Below, in pieces: positions 6,236 to 11,989 of a DNA stretch of 64,000 bases. The notes under the pieces were generated by a model, which had not been told where the DNA came from, searched no databases, and saw only the letters and a program-made list of their open reading frames with translations. Within the stretch, counting starts at the first letter, position 1. Each line of letters starts with the position of its first letter. Source of the stretch: Dysgonamonadaceae bacterium (GTDB taxonomy: Bacteria > Bacteroidota > Bacteroidia > Bacteroidales > Azobacteroidaceae). Location: positions 1 through 64,000 of the forward strand of contig JAIRVZ010000044.1 of the NCBI GenBank assembly GCA_031253625.1, read 5' to 3'. Position numbers and translations under genes: made by a program.

Positions 6236-9200
6236 TTATTTTGTTTCTAATGCTTTCAGGCGAGCCTCTAATTGTTCATTGATTTTTTGCAATGCCTCAA
6301 TCATTTGTTGTTGCTCCTGAATAGCTTTCGTTAACACCGGAATTAAATCGGAAGTGTTCAAGCCAAGTATATCTCCTTCTAATTGTGAAACCAAACCATA
6401 GCCTTCCATGTTTTCAGCAGCCATAGCGTCCTGTACATCTTGTGCAATAAAACCAAGTGATTTTTTGCCGGTTCCATTGTTATACAAGAATTCTACAGGT
6501 TTTAATTTCAATACAAAATCAACACCTTGACCTATCGGTTTGATATCGTGTTTCAAACGACGGTCGGAAGCATTTGTCCAACTGGTGGTATTATACATGT
6601 AATATGCATTGTTGCTACTGTTACCAATAACTACTTGGTTACTTGAACTTCCACGACTTCCCAAATCATTTCCAATGATGATGTTATTATTACCTGTCAT
6701 ATCAGTATCAGAACTCTTCGGATTAGGATTAACCCCTATCATTATATTTTTACTTCCGGTAGTTATATAACATCCTGCGCCATAACCTAATACTGTGTTC
6801 AGTTGTCCATCTACAGGAGTATCATTTACTTTAGTGCCTTTAATTATCCGTAATGCGTAAGAACCTACAGCAGTATTCATATCAGCGCTATTAGGATTAT
6901 CTGCACCTGATAACCCTCCCATCGCCTGCACTCCTATTGCGACATTATTCGCTCCTTTTTTTATATTCTGTCCGGAAATAGCACCTACGGCAACATTACC
7001 ACTATTATTATTACTGTTTGTAATTACGTTTAATGCGTTAAGACCTACAGCGGTATTACCATAGTCACCACTTCCGCTACCAACATCAACTCCATTGATA
7101 GAAGCATTTCCTCCGGTAACGTAAAACTGATACCCAGCTTGACCGGTTTGTGTGTATGCGTATTCTTTCAGGATAGCTTCTTCAGCTTTTATCCCAACAA
7201 TAACTTTTGCTCTCAAATAAGAATTATTACTATTGAGAGTCGACGGAGTACCAGTACCCGCCATCGCATTTGCAGCTGTTACATTCGCACTCCCTTCTGT
7301 CTCCATGTTAAGAGGAAATTGATGCCAAGGACTTGCTCCTGCTCCGGTAGTTGGCAATGCTTGCCAAGTTGCCAAACCTGTATCATCAGTGGTCAGTACC
7401 CATCCTTTATTTTTTTCATTTCCGTCTTGAAGCATAAATCCTTTTACCGGAGCATCAGCTTTACCTCCAGTTTGGATATGGAATTTTGTCTGAGGATCAT
7501 GTGTTCCGACACCTAAGTTTCCGTGGTGAACATCGTTGGGAGAAAAGCCGGACATACTGCCGTCCGCATCTGTTGCAAATATTAAATTCCCGATATTTAT
7601 TTTGTAGTCGCCTTCTGTATTTGTGTTGGCACCTATAGTTATATTATGACTGCCAAACGAGTTGCTTCCAGCCATAAAACCTAATGCAGTGTTGTAAGAT
7701 TGATCACCGTCCATAGTAGATAACGCATCGATACCCACAGCCGTATTATAATTTCCAAACCTCAAATTTGAAAGAGCCGCACTGCCCATGGCTGTATTTC
7801 CATAGCCTGTTTGAAGATCCTCCAGCGCTATATATCCAACGGCTGTATTACTGTCAGCTGTATTCATACGAAGAGCTCTGGTGCCTACTGCCGTATTATG
7901 GATACCGCCTTTTCCTGTTCCGACAGTGATTCCATTGATAATGGCGTCTCCACCTGCAACTGTTAACTGGGCTTCTGTAGCCCCAAATGGTTCAAACTTA
8001 GCAGGAACCGTAGAACCGATAACTACTTTGGCCATTAAATAAGAATCATCGGTATTTTGGGTTGACGGCGCTCCCGGAATGCTACCCACCTTATACCAAG
8101 GGCTGGGAGCTGTTGGTGGTAGCCATGTTGCATAACCCAGGGCATTAGCAGTTAATACATAACCGGCTTGACAAACTCCACGGTCTACAAGTCTGAAACC
8201 AGTATATGGAGCCAGCGCTTGAACCTCTAATTTTGCGTTGGGTGTATTTGTTCCGATACCGATATTTCCTTCAAAAATGCCGTCATTGCGAATTCCGGTT
8301 ACACCTGTTCCATATATCAGGTTGCCTATGGAGATTTGGTTATTGGTATCATCAGATACATCAGCTTTATTGCCAATTACAATATTATTATCTCCTTTAT
8401 ATAAACTTTGTGCAGCTTCATTTCCAATTATTATATTTCTGGAACCTTCATTAAGAATAGGTGCGGAACGATATCCTATAATCACATTCTGATCTCCTTT
8501 ACCATACGGCATAGCGCTATATCCCACTACCACATTCAGGTTTCCTAATGTCGAAAACGCAGCGGCACTATGACCTATGGCGACATTATTACTTCCGGCA
8601 TCATTATTACGAAGAGCATTATAACCTAAGGCTGTATTATAGTCTCCACTTGCATTATACGCAAGAGCCATAGAGCCTACCGCTGTATTTTCTTTTCCTT
8701 TACTGTAATCAAGAGCGAAGTAGCCTACAGCTACATTGTAAGAATTTGTAGTATTGCCATTAAGAGCGAAGTAACCTATCGCTGTATTATATGTCCCTGA
8801 AGTATTGCTATGAAGAGCATAATTACCTACAGCAACATTATTACCGCCATCAATATTGAGATGGAGTGCAGAGTTACCCATAGCTATATTGTTTCCACCT
8901 GATACATTACTCCAAAGAGCACCTGAACCCATAGCTATATTATAGTTACCTGTTTCGTTCTTATAAAGAGGATTTCCGCCTATGGCTATATTATCACCTC
9001 CTCTGGTATTGTAATAAAGAGCTGTCGAACCTATGCCTATATTATTCCAACCTGTAGTGTTTCCTCTAAGAGCGCCGCCTAAGCCTATATTATAGTAACC
9101 TGATGTGTTCGCTCCAAGACTCTCGTTTCCTATGGCTACATTATAAGAACCAGAGGTATTTTCTTTAAGGATATTACCTCCTATGGCTACATTATTCCAG

Positions 9201-9733
9201 CCCGTCTTTGAGGGTAAAGCGTTGATACCAAACGAAACTGAGCCGTATGGATCGTTGCTGATCATTCCGGCATGGGTGTCATTTACCCTGAACATCAACG
9301 CATTGTCGTCTGTTGTACCAATAAAATTATCGATAGAATTTGTTCCGTCATTTCCGGTAGTTAGCCAAGCGTTCAAATCAGTTGTTGTGCCGGCATCTTT
9401 CACCCATTTGGAACCATCCCAATAATAAACACCTATTCCATTTCCACCAGTTATGGCAGGGTTTGTATTGTAAACAATTGCCCCTTTCAAATCTGCTACA
9501 TCCGCAGGAGTTTCGCTAAACTGTGTTAAATCGGTTATATTTGTCAAAGATACATTAGCTAATCGCAAGCCCCCGACATAACCGGTTGCTTTGTTACTGT
9601 GTAGTTCCAGTACCGCACCTTTAACAGGTTCGGCATCCTGACCGATTTTTACTTGTGCTTGTATAGTAGCTAACGGCATTAATGCTACCAATACGATTAA
9701 GACTTTTAATTCTTGAATAGTTTTCATAATCAT
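6236..9733 (-). CDS. Giant secreted beta-roll protein with C-terminal S74 chaperone domain
   Basis: 1165 residues; ATG at 9727 (MKTIQELK) is an equally good start. Signal peptide about 1-27 ending IQAQ. Three beta-roll arrays (about 178-457, 610-720, 890-1040) built on N.A.G / N.(I/V).IG turns, like the head repeats of trimeric adhesins. Between them are repeated linker modules (KLEV/KFHI...GF.L.D...TW at 488-540 and 738-790; SYL.AKV at 564-607 and 838-885). The C-terminus (1054-1165) is a peptidase S74 intramolecular chaperone: NASDRRLKHDI with candidate cleavage Ser1056, FIAQDVQ, then a coiled-coil tail. S74 domains help fibres trimerise and then cut themselves off. Cell-surface fibre or adhesin inferred; phage origin not supported by neighbours. 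Confidence 0.85.
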   Translation of the reverse strand: MIMKTIQELKVLIVLVALMPLATIQAQVKIGQDAEPVKGAVLELHSNKATGYVGGLRLANVSLTNITDLTQFSETPADVADLKGAIVYNTNPAITGGNGIGVYYWDGSKWVKDAGTTTDLNAWLTTGNDGTNSIDNFIGTTDDNALMFRVNDTHAGMISNDPYGSVSFGINALPSKTGWNNVAIGGNILKENTSGSYNVAIGNESLGANTSGYYNIGLGGALRGNTTGWNNIGIGSTALYYNTRGGDNIAIGGNPLYKNETGNYNIAMGSGALWSNVSGGNNIAMGNSALHLNIDGGNNVAVGNYALHSNTSGTYNTAIGYFALNGNTTNSYNVAVGYFALDYSKGKENTAVGSMALAYNASGDYNTALGYNALRNNDAGSNNVAIGHSAAAFSTLGNLNVVVGYSAMPYGKGDQNVIIGYRSAPILNEGSRNIIIGNEAAQSLYKGDNNIVIGNKADVSDDTNNQISIGNLIYGTGVTGIRNDGIFEGNIGIGTNTPNAKLEVQALAPYTGFRLVDRGVCQAGYVLTANALGYATWLPPTAPSPWYKVGSIPGAPSTQNTDDSYLMAKVVIGSTVPAKFEPFGATEAQLTVAGGDAIINGITVGTGKGGIHNTAVGTRALRMNTADSNTAVGYIALEDLQTGYGNTAMGSAALSNLRFGNYNTAVGIDALSTMDGDQSYNTALGFMAGSNSFGSHNITIGANTNTEGDYKINIGNLIFATDADGSMSGFSPNDVHHGNLGVGTHDPQTKFHIQTGGKADAPVKGFMLQDGNEKNKGWVLTTDDTGLATWQALPTTGAGASPWHQFPLNMETEGSANVTAANAMAGTGTPSTLNSNNSYLRAKVIVGIKAEEAILKEYAYTQTGQAGYQFYVTGGNASINGVDVGSGSGDYGNTAVGLNALNVITNSNNNSGNVAVGAISGQNIKKGANNVAIGVQAMGGLSGADNPNSADMNTAVGSYALRIIKGTKVNDTPVDGQLNTVLGYGAGCYITTGSKNIMIGVNPNPKSSDTDMTGNNNIIIGNDLGSRGSSSNQVVIGNSSNNAYYMYNTTSWTNASDRRLKHDIKPIGQGVDFVLKLKPVEFLYNNGTGKKSLGFIAQDVQDAMAAENMEGYGLVSQLEGDILGLNTSDLIPVLTKAIQEQQQMIEALQKINEQLEARLKALETK
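6614..7066 (-). repeat. Third beta-roll repeat array (coding)
   Basis: Encodes about residues 890-1040 with irregular N.AVG / N.(I)IG turns interrupted by insertions such as those near residues 905-912 and 965-978. More degenerate than the first array. Confidence 0.65.
7574..7906 (-). repeat. Second beta-roll repeat array (coding)
   Basis: Encodes about residues 610-720: turns NTAVGTRAL, NTAVGYIAL, NTAMGSAAL, NTAVGIDAL, NTALGFMAG, NITIGANT. Spacing is about 16-17 residues. Confidence 0.7.
8363..9202 (-). repeat. First beta-roll repeat array, about 17 turns (coding)
   Basis: Encodes about residues 178-457. The unit is about 17 residues (51 bp), for example GNYNIAMGSGALWSNVS, tandemly repeated with strong conservation of N.A.G.(A)L..N. 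High DNA-level similarity between units makes the tract prone to recombination and copy-number change. Confidence 0.85.
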
Positions 9734-9762
9734 TTCTTTTTTTATTCATTTCTTTTTTTATT
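9731..9762. repeat. Tandem 16-bp duplication at the ribosome-binding region
   Basis: Two adjacent identical copies of CATTTCTTTTTTTATT. Read on the - strand this duplicates the A-rich translation initiation region and an ATG just upstream of the surface-protein start. Confidence 0.8.
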
Positions 9763-9808
9763 TGTCTACATGTATTTTTTAGTGTTTATTCATTAGAGTT
9801 TAAATTAA

Positions 9809-9940
9809 CTCCGGTGTCCTTTATCACACACATAAATAAAAAAGATAAAAAAGAAAACTTTTTTCACAAAAAGCCTGCTGCCGTATTTTCACAAATATGG
9901 ACTGCTAAATTTCCTAATAACGATAAAGGAAACACCGGAG
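9809..9940 (-). ncRNA. Candidate structured 5' leader
   Basis: CTCCGGTGTCCTTTATC at 9809-9825 pairs with 9922-9940 (same sequence inverted, with a 2-base bulge), enclosing 96 bases. Inside are two smaller hairpins: AAAAAAG/CTTTTTT near 9849-9865 and CCGTATTT/AAATATGG near 9891-9910. The structure lies in the transcribed leader of the surface-protein gene, about 75 bases before its start. It is not a riboswitch class I recognise. Confidence 0.45.
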
Positions 9941-10020
9941 ATAATAGAATTATTAAACTTTCACAATTAGCATGTGTTGTGTGAATAATATTGTTGTTAT
10001 TTTTCAATTTATTTACAGCA

Positions 10021-10028
10021 CAAAGATA
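10021..10028 (-). promoter_or_regulatory. -7 box of the surface-protein gene
   Basis: TATCTTTG on the - strand. The expected -33 position (near 10049-10052) has no TTG and falls at the edge of the first direct repeat, as in an activator-dependent promoter. Predicted start near 10015, giving a leader of about 280 bases. Confidence 0.6.
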
Positions 10029-10050
10029 AAACGTAAGGTTAAAAAGGTCA

Positions 10051-10130
10051 TGCCACACAGTCCGAAATCTATGTCACGTAATCCGAAATTTGTGCCATAC
10101 AGTCCGAAAGCTTGCCACACAGTCCGAAAG
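10051..10130. promoter_or_regulatory. Four direct repeats, candidate regulator binding array
   Basis: Units related to TGCCACACAGTCCGAAA start at 10051, 10072, 10093 and 10113, a period of 20-21 bp, about two helical turns. They sit directly upstream of the -7 box at 10021-10028 and just past the end of the TPR-AraC gene. A regulator binding one face of the DNA is the simplest reading. Confidence 0.6.
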
Positions 10131-10180
10131 TTGCGTTGTGTGCTGCAAATTTCAGGTTAATAATAAAATTATTAATGCAT

Positions 10181-11989
10181 TTACGAAGTTGTTGCGATTT
10201 TTCTATATTCGGAGGGAGTAATCCGGTAGTAGTTGCTGAAGAGGCGATAAAATGTTCGTAAAGAACTAAATCCACATTCAGCAATAATGGTTTCGATGGT
10301 TAGGTCGGAATGATCAAGCAGTCGTTTCGCTTCTTCTAATCGCAAGCAGTTGACGTATTCCATTGGAGTCTTTCCGGTAACTGCTTTAATCGCATCAAAC
10401 AGATATGTTCTGTTAGTTGCCAATTTCGGAGCGATTTGATCAATGTCGATATCAGAATTGACGAAAGCCCTATCCTTGAGCAGGTATTCGTGCATGCAGG
10501 AAACGAGTTGCCGCTGTTGCTTGTTACTCTGAAGATTCACGATTTCATCTGCGGCATTCAGTTCGTGTTCTCCTGTGGCCGGAAGTGATTGTATTAATTG
10601 TTCGTATTGTTTAGAAATAATATCCAATTCATCTTTCAGTCGATCTTGTTCTTTAATTTGTCTATATAAACCACGGTTTTTCTTAGTAACTATCCGGCTG
10701 TAATGCATCCATATTCCGAGTAAGATTGCCAGTAAGATGCAGCCACCAAGGGCAAAAAAAAGATAGTTATGGAGGTGTTCTTTTTCGGCAATGTGTTTGT
10801 CTACTTCGTATTGGATACGGATTTCGTCTAATTGGGCACTGTTTTCTAACTGGACGATAGAATCGTTGCGTTCGAAAGCCTTTATAATAACCGAATATGA
10901 TTCTTCCGCACGCCCCATTTTGCTTAATAAGCGAGCTTTTTCCTTTAATAAGTAAATCGTGTAATAATTTGAAAATCCGAGATTAGTACGCCAATCGATG
11001 TTTTTATCAATCCAACCGATGGCACTGTCATACTCATTGCGTCCCTCACAAATAGAGGCTCTGATATTCCATATCAAATGTTGTTCTATAGGGACAATTA
11101 TTGGCTGCAAGGAATCGCAATATAACTCGGCTTCTTCGTATTTTTCTTTGGCGATTTCAGCCAAAGCACAGGTTTTATAATATAATACTAAAAACGGATC
11201 GGGATAACCGAAAGCTTTTTCAAAATCAATCGTATATTTTTTCCAAACAGGCATTAGAGCAAGTAACTCGTTTAGTTTCTTTTGATCAATCAAAGAATTT
11301 GCTAATCCATTGTACCCTTTTGACATTAAATTATAATTAGCAAGGTCAGATTCTTCTTTGATTAGTTTTGACGCATTTCTCATCGTTTCTTGATAGTATT
11401 TTTCGGCTTCGTCATAACGTCCTTCCATATAATATATCTGTGCTATGAGTAAGGTAGCTTGGGTTATTCCATACAAACAATCTTCTTGTTTAGCTTCTGC
11501 ATATATTTGTTTGGCTCCTTCTATAGTACGCTTGTTATTTCCATCCCTTCCTAATAATTGTACCACAGGTACATAAGTGTCGTAGTAGGCTTTATAGGAA
11601 CCATTTTTCTTAAAGATGGGTAGATATTCGTTTGCTTTCCGTCTAAACTCATCATCTTTTAAATGCCTCCATAAATAAATAAGTTCTTCTCTGCAAGCTA
11701 AACTTTCATATTCTTTGTTTTGTTGTTTGCGTGCTTCGCGGATAAAGTCGTTTATGTATTGTAACATTAAATCAACGTCTTCCTCCGAGAGTTGAGAGGA
11801 TTGATCGAACTCTACCAATGCCTTGTATACTTTTAACCTTTCCTCTCCTTGTGTTGATGCAATTACTTTTAGGAGCGAATCTTTTTTATGTAGAAAATTG
11901 TTATTTTGTCCATGAATGGCTGTTATGGAGAAGAAACATATAAATAGGCAAATCAGCCCTCGAGTGAAAAATCGGGTTGTAAGTTTCAT
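10181..11989 (-). CDS. Membrane TPR sensor with cytoplasmic AraC-type DNA-binding domain
   Basis: 602 residues. Signal peptide or first membrane helix about 9-28; a periplasmic TPR-like helical region about 30-395 (repeats such as YMEGRYDEAEKYYQE and KEKYEEAELYCDSL); one membrane helix about 408-428 (LFFALGGCILLAILLGIW); a coiled segment; then an AraC HTH pair about 505-600 (LATNRTYLFDAIKAV, TPMEYVNCLRLEEAKRLL, CGFSSLRTFYRLF, TPSEYR). This one-component layout, sensing outside and binding DNA inside, is common in Bacteroidetes. The neighbouring S74 surface protein and the direct repeats between the two genes suggest its target; this is inference. Confidence 0.88.
   Translation of the reverse strand: MKLTTRFFTRGLICLFICFFSITAIHGQNNNFLHKKDSLLKVIASTQGEERLKVYKALVEFDQSSQLSEEDVDLMLQYINDFIREARKQQNKEYESLACREELIYLWRHLKDDEFRRKANEYLPIFKKNGSYKAYYDTYVPVVQLLGRDGNNKRTIEGAKQIYAEAKQEDCLYGITQATLLIAQIYYMEGRYDEAEKYYQETMRNASKLIKEESDLANYNLMSKGYNGLANSLIDQKKLNELLALMPVWKKYTIDFEKAFGYPDPFLVLYYKTCALAEIAKEKYEEAELYCDSLQPIIVPIEQHLIWNIRASICEGRNEYDSAIGWIDKNIDWRTNLGFSNYYTIYLLKEKARLLSKMGRAEESYSVIIKAFERNDSIVQLENSAQLDEIRIQYEVDKHIAEKEHLHNYLFFALGGCILLAILLGIWMHYSRIVTKKNRGLYRQIKEQDRLKDELDIISKQYEQLIQSLPATGEHELNAADEIVNLQSNKQQRQLVSCMHEYLLKDRAFVNSDIDIDQIAPKLATNRTYLFDAIKAVTGKTPMEYVNCLRLEEAKRLLDHSDLTIETIIAECGFSSLRTFYRLFSNYYRITPSEYRKIATTS

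Follow-up and report, generated by a model that had tools for sequence, protein, structure and literature searches.

The window analyzed here is a stretch of 64,000 nucleotides (positions 1 to 64,000 of contig JAIRVZ010000044.1, assembly GCA_031253625.1) from a Dysgonamonadaceae bacterium. Within it, an array of four direct repeats sits between the gene for a membrane regulator with TPR and AraC domains (here, a TPR-AraC regulator) and the gene for a surface protein with a Peptidase_S74 domain (here, an S74 protein); the features of the locus are listed in Table 1. The array occupies the 52 to 130 bp past the regulator stop codon and ends 22 bp short of a -7 box. The start-to-start spacing of its four units is 21, 21, and 20 bp.

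Table 1. Features of the regulator/surface-protein locus, with positions given in the window.
Feature	Position	Strand	Basis
Target gene, 1165-aa exported protein	6236..9733	(-)	Pfam; repeats by eye
Structured 5'UTR leader: outer stem CTCCGGTG..CACCGGAG, two hairpins usually GTGA-capped	9809..9940	(-)	Fold, alignment, genome scan
-7 box TATCTTTG without -33 element	10021..10028	(-)	Sequence; alignment of 14 promoters
Putative foreign block: coiled coil and HTH coding (from ~codon 440) plus operator	10030..10670	(-)	DNA identity, protein profile
Putative half-site 1 (promoter-proximal) TTTCGGACTGTGTGGCA	10051..10067	(-)	Sequence reading
Putative half-site 2 TTTCGGATTACGTGACA	10072..10088	(-)	Sequence reading
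Putative half-site 3 TTTCGGACTGTATGGCA	10093..10109	(-)	Sequence reading
Putative half-site 4 (distal) TTTCGGACTGTGTGGCA	10113..10129	(-)	Sequence reading
TPR-AraC membrane regulator, 602 aa	10181..11989	(-)	Pfam, hydropathy, AlphaFold2 model

Four direct repeats 20 to 21 bp apart had been predicted at this position from the sequence alone. The best 21-base self-match at a lag of 20 to 22 is 18/21, which lies beyond all of 400 shuffles (mean 10.7, maximum 15). The repeats of the original prediction therefore stand, and their orientation is corrected: the functional reading is that of the minus strand (TTTCGGACTGTGTGGCA), on which both flanking genes are encoded. In a scan of the 3.14-Mb assembly, a degenerate motif for the window units had four perfect matches, all at the window array, and zero sites with one mismatch. 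With two mismatches allowed, the scan returned 20 solitary, scattered sites genome-wide compared to 12 for the reversed control. Autoregulation through the window repeats was considered and rejected, given that the motif is absent from the 5' side of the regulator's own gene.

Promoters of Bacteroidota are recognized by a -33 TTTG and a -7 TAnnTTTG. Next to the repeats we found the predicted arrangement, a -7 box lacking a -33 element, with no TTTG at 19 to 21 bp upstream of the box, either at the window locus or in the aligned promoters of its paralogs. When 14 promoters are aligned, the window box keeps the paralogs' position relative to the operator. The direct half-sites, approximately 21 bp apart with the proximal one over the -35/-33 position, have the geometry of a class II AraC operator.

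The upstream gene had been read as a membrane TPR sensor with an AraC domain, and Pfam, hydropathy, and an AlphaFold2 model agree on this. The protein consists of an N-terminal hydrophobic or signal segment, a TPR sensor (residues ~30 to 400), a single membrane helix placed by hydropathy around residues 406 to 428, a coiled coil, and an AraC-type HTH. Its Pfam matches are HTH_18 (6.7e-21, 74.8 bits, cut-off 33.6), HTH_AraC (55.3 bits, cut-off 26.6), and TPR_12, the first two of which exceed the curated cut-offs and mark an AraC/XylS-type domain. In the AlphaFold2 model (mean pLDDT 84), a TPR solenoid leads into a long membrane-spanning helix, after which come a flexible linker (residues 465 to 486) and the HTH. 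The HTH is an all-helical double HTH with two recognition helices (residues 527 to 538 and 577 to 588), both in the model and in an ungapped alignment with MarA. Among PDB structures, the modelled solenoid is similar to TPR superhelices, including those of the peptide sensors Rap and NprR. Pfam found only TPR and AraC domains in the regulator and no histidine kinase or receiver domain; therefore, the protein is not an HTCS. The 1165-aa target protein combines YadA-head-like repeats, as judged by eye, with a C-terminal Peptidase_S74 chaperone domain.

Fourteen regulator loci in one genome

In total, the genome encodes 14 TPR-AraC regulators: the window protein and 13 others that are 49 to 58% identical to it. 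Nearly all 14 lie beside a surface-protein gene, and S74 proteins adjoin most of them. The loci have a common layout, in which the stop codon of the regulator is followed by a tandem array of two to four units spaced 21 bp, then by 17 to 18 bp, and then by a -7 box (e.g., TACTTTTG). In 12 of the 14 loci, a nearly identical leader is placed between the -7 box and the target gene. The bases of the units differ between loci, with the closest pair, C23 and C3, differing by one core base. By self-match alone, six of the 14 arrays (C18, C90, C78a, C71, C16, and C89) are not significant as repeats and the C78b array is borderline (p=0.06); these arrays were accepted by alignment to the common geometry.

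Two cassettes in this genome (G000) drive exported proteins of other kinds: a 1411-aa secreted protein at C18, where there is no leader, and a FISUMP-type lipoprotein at C89, where the leader is divergent. The switch is therefore not tied to S74 proteins. The target gene at C71 is incomplete, as it runs off the contig end. One S74 protein of 1587 aa that is related to the surface protein (L087, G000:C93:65954-70654) has neither an adjacent TPR-AraC gene nor a leader.

Match between operators and DNA-binding domains

Across the 14 loci, the more two operators differ, the more their HTH domains differ as well (Mantel r=0.82, p=2e-4), and the correlation persists when the window locus is left out (r=0.48, p=0.0015). 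Operator distance was not significantly correlated with sensor distance (p=0.10 to 0.41) or with leader distance (p=0.28), though the leader is as near the operator as the HTH is. Leader distance follows sensor distance (r=0.51 to 0.63).

When HTH columns were compared with operator columns in an unbiased scan, the highest-ranking pairs included residue 582 with operator position 12 (N with T and R with G, 13/13), 527 with position 4, 528 with position 3, 578 with position 14, and 581 with position 15. All these residues are located in the two recognition helices, and residues 528, 578, 581, and 582 correspond to MarA positions 42, 92, 95, and 96 in the gap-free alignment. Helix 6 contacts the DNA in the MarA-DNA structure. 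Trp42 of MarA makes base contacts, and Gln45 and Arg46 are named along with it (PMC3315485). The comparison of contact columns with the remaining HTH columns gave p=0.02, with some non-contact columns scoring equally high, as is expected since the 13 sequences are related. The rules derived from the 13 paralogs fit the window locus, where R582, R578, and Y581 face G12, C14, and A15 after the window operator is shifted one base, to the 17-bp spacer register of most loci. As testable recognition rules, the aligned sequences suggest R or N at residue 582 with G or T at position 12, R or Q at 578 with C or T at 14, and R, Q, or Y at 581 with C, G, or A at 15.

The window locus carries the outlying member of this set. 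DNA identity to the 13 paralogs is ~0.7 before the block listed in Table 1, 0.38 to 0.56 inside it, and 0.8 after it, in the leader; the break falls just past the membrane helix. The window sensor is 60% identical to the family, as similar as other members are, and is closest to the paralogs. The window HTH, with 35% identity compared to ~70% among family members, has its closest counterparts within the family but outside its own genus (57% in G332). The locus with the outlying HTH is exactly the locus with the outlying repeats. Because the 3' end of the regulator gene codes for the HTH and the operator lies past the stop codon, the two make up a single DNA segment whose exchange would leave their match intact, and the identity profile marks the window locus as a joint exchange of HTH and operator in one contiguous block. 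It constitutes a natural swap experiment.

This linkage on one piece of DNA means that co-inheritance could lie behind part of the correlation. We consider it very unlikely, however, that the covariation reflects shared ancestry only and that the repeats have no function with the adjacent regulator. HTH and operator are indeed DNA neighbors, and the window block moved as one piece, but the leader equally adjoins the operator yet does not follow it. In addition, the 21-bp spacing and the 17- to 18-bp distance are kept while the bases change, and the covarying residues are located in the recognition helices. The window repeats are very probably landing sites of the neighboring membrane-anchored regulator.

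The expectation that relatives would carry the same repeats was borne out in part, in two genomes, and failed in others. In G332, which belongs to another genus, direct repeats of 21 bp (GGAATAGTACGGACA; self-match 18/21, above all 400 shuffles) come after the gene for the regulator whose HTH is closest to that of the window regulator. One unit has the TTTCGGA box of the window repeats; the -7 box there is not clear. In G013, whose regulator has R578 and R582, the gene is followed by 21-bp repeats of TTTGTC(C/T)AC, and G12 lies at the family distance, 26 bp from a -7-like box (GAACTTTG), this box being imperfect and its distance counted by hand. Reading of the sequence revealed no visible 21-bp array in G332b and G025, which have the same HTH type as the window regulator, and the repeats of G015 are of another form: a regulator of this HTH type (L095, G015:C148) has three tandem units (TGCCCTGACTTTGTGCAA) at 30 to 31 bp, equal to three helical turns rather than two. 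The neighboring gene is unrelated in several of the compared relatives (G332, G013, G015, G332b, and G025). Behind four TPR-AraC genes of related genomes (L091, L092, L093, and L103), the direct repeats give way to an inverted one (GATGTCGCATTTC..GAAATGCGACATC or a closely similar form), which precedes a -7-like box.

Known systems and a proposed model of the switch

Bacteroides HTCS have direct-repeat operators with ~21 bp between sites, and similar HTH domains among them have similar motifs (PMC3878776). Like the regulators described here, HTCS such as BT4124 and BT4663 combine a sensor outside the membrane with an AraC-type HTH inside in one protein, occur as many paralogs per genome, and adjoin their targets (PMC3878776). 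Given that HTCS share the operator form found at the window locus and in its paralogs, and that their motifs cluster with their HTH domains, the principle is already known. In contrast to HTCS, which carry a kinase and a receiver between sensor and HTH, the regulator here has a TPR sensor and neither of these domains; its target is an S74 surface protein rather than a glycan-utilization locus, and its operator lies directly past the regulator stop codon. A literature search for Bacteroidota membrane regulators of this TPR-AraC kind with surface proteins as targets returned nothing relevant. From sequence comparison, four things appear to be new: TPR regulators that lack a kinase and are dedicated to S74 proteins of the surface, a single genome with 14 such operators that all differ, an HTH exchanged together with its operator in one block, and the leader.

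The AraC protein of Escherichia coli acts at araI1-I2 on 17-bp half-sites arranged as a direct repeat 21 bp apart, the proximal one over the -35 region. The window array shares the 17-bp direct-repeat half-sites 21 bp apart and the proximal position at the -35 region, whereas E. coli AraC is a soluble, single-copy arabinose-binding protein with a different site sequence. With MarA, SoxS, and Rob, the regulator shares the double HTH that places recognition helices 3 and 6 on DNA, and its covarying residues fall at aligned contact positions; MarA itself acts as a monomer on single sites and is without a sensor domain. An AraC-type regulator beside a surface-antigen gene is also found in the YSIRK-targeted surface antigen regulators (TIGR04094), a Gram-positive family to which the regulator here is similar in the HTH only (score 30.8 compared to a cut-off of 200).

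The original prediction of a dedicated switch for the surface protein is supported by the geometry of the 14 loci, the covariation of HTH and operator, and the joint swap at the window locus. We put the probability at roughly 85% that the repeats are the operator through which the adjacent regulator activates the surface-protein gene and that the 14 paralogs work alike on private sites. We conclude that each regulator would activate its own neighbor, switching it through a half-site sequence private to that locus. The regulator would be a single-protein membrane switch, with its TPR sensor outside the cytoplasmic membrane and its HTH in the cytoplasm. We infer that a signal leads to dimerization and DNA binding: engagement of the sensor would bring two DNA-binding domains (at the window locus, up to four) side by side onto half-sites spaced two helical turns apart. 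Because the proximal half-site lies where a -33 element would be expected, the bound regulator could bring RNA polymerase to the -7 box, and transcription of the surface-protein gene would then pass through the structured leader RNA. Judging from the modelled sensor, it is conceivable that the ligand is a peptide or a protein, perhaps a peptide from the S74 protein itself.

Activation is also what we infer in preference to an improbable alternative, in which the regulator, once on the repeats, represses the surface-protein promoter or does no more than adjust its activity, and its release by a signal turns the gene on. A protein on the proximal half-site over the -33 region could also block polymerase, but promoters without a -33 element are expected to be weak unless helped, the position of the site fits class II activation as known for AraC-type proteins, and the related HTCS activate.

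There is about an even chance of a wider reading. In it, the 14 regulator/operator pairs have distinct operators, HTH and operator make up one contiguous specificity cassette that is recombined as a whole between the sensor and the leader, and new switches free of cross-talk thereby appear in one step. The pairs would also supply a readable amino-acid-to-base code for AraC-type domains, and their transcripts would have in common a structured leader RNA not described before. The general question addressed by such a set is how duplicated regulators become insulated from one another. Because 14 duplicates stand beside their own operators in one genome, their specificity can be read by comparison. 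Rules for the AraC double HTH could help predict the targets of many Bacteroidota AraC-type regulators, and the 14 loci provide a candidate set of distinct promoters.

Structured leader RNA

The window leader has a fold z of -3.45. We detected 14 copies of the leader in the genome, 12 nearly identical and two divergent (C89 and C32:662-834), and folding indicates that all 14 share an outer stem closing hairpins, usually with GTGA loops. The arms pair better within a locus than across loci (p=0.0016), chiefly via the two divergent copies, and RNAalifold reported 0 doubly compensated pairs among the 12 near-identical leaders; most support for the stem comes from the arm-swap test and from the C89 and C32 copies. 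No Rfam 15 family matched positions 9700-10200 at E<=1, and a known riboswitch or leader was rejected on this basis. A search of 47 other genomes of the family and 294 other genomes of the order found no leader; its model was narrow and its filters strict, and leaders of greater divergence may have escaped it. The U-rich 3' side of the leader and its alternative pairings would allow attenuation or mRNA stabilization.

The arms of the outer stem form a near-perfect inverted repeat (9809-9825/9922-9940) with ~96 bp between the inner arms, as would suit an invertible promoter that generates phase variation. We regard this as extremely unlikely: rather than occurring in both orientations, the segment has an identical orientation in 12/12 close copies, its interior folds into conserved hairpins, and the two divergent leaders retain the stem despite different arms. 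An inverton was rejected on these grounds.

The divergent copy at C32 (L125) lies outside the TPR-AraC cassettes, after a different AraC-type gene, and precedes a small exported protein with a membrane segment at its end.
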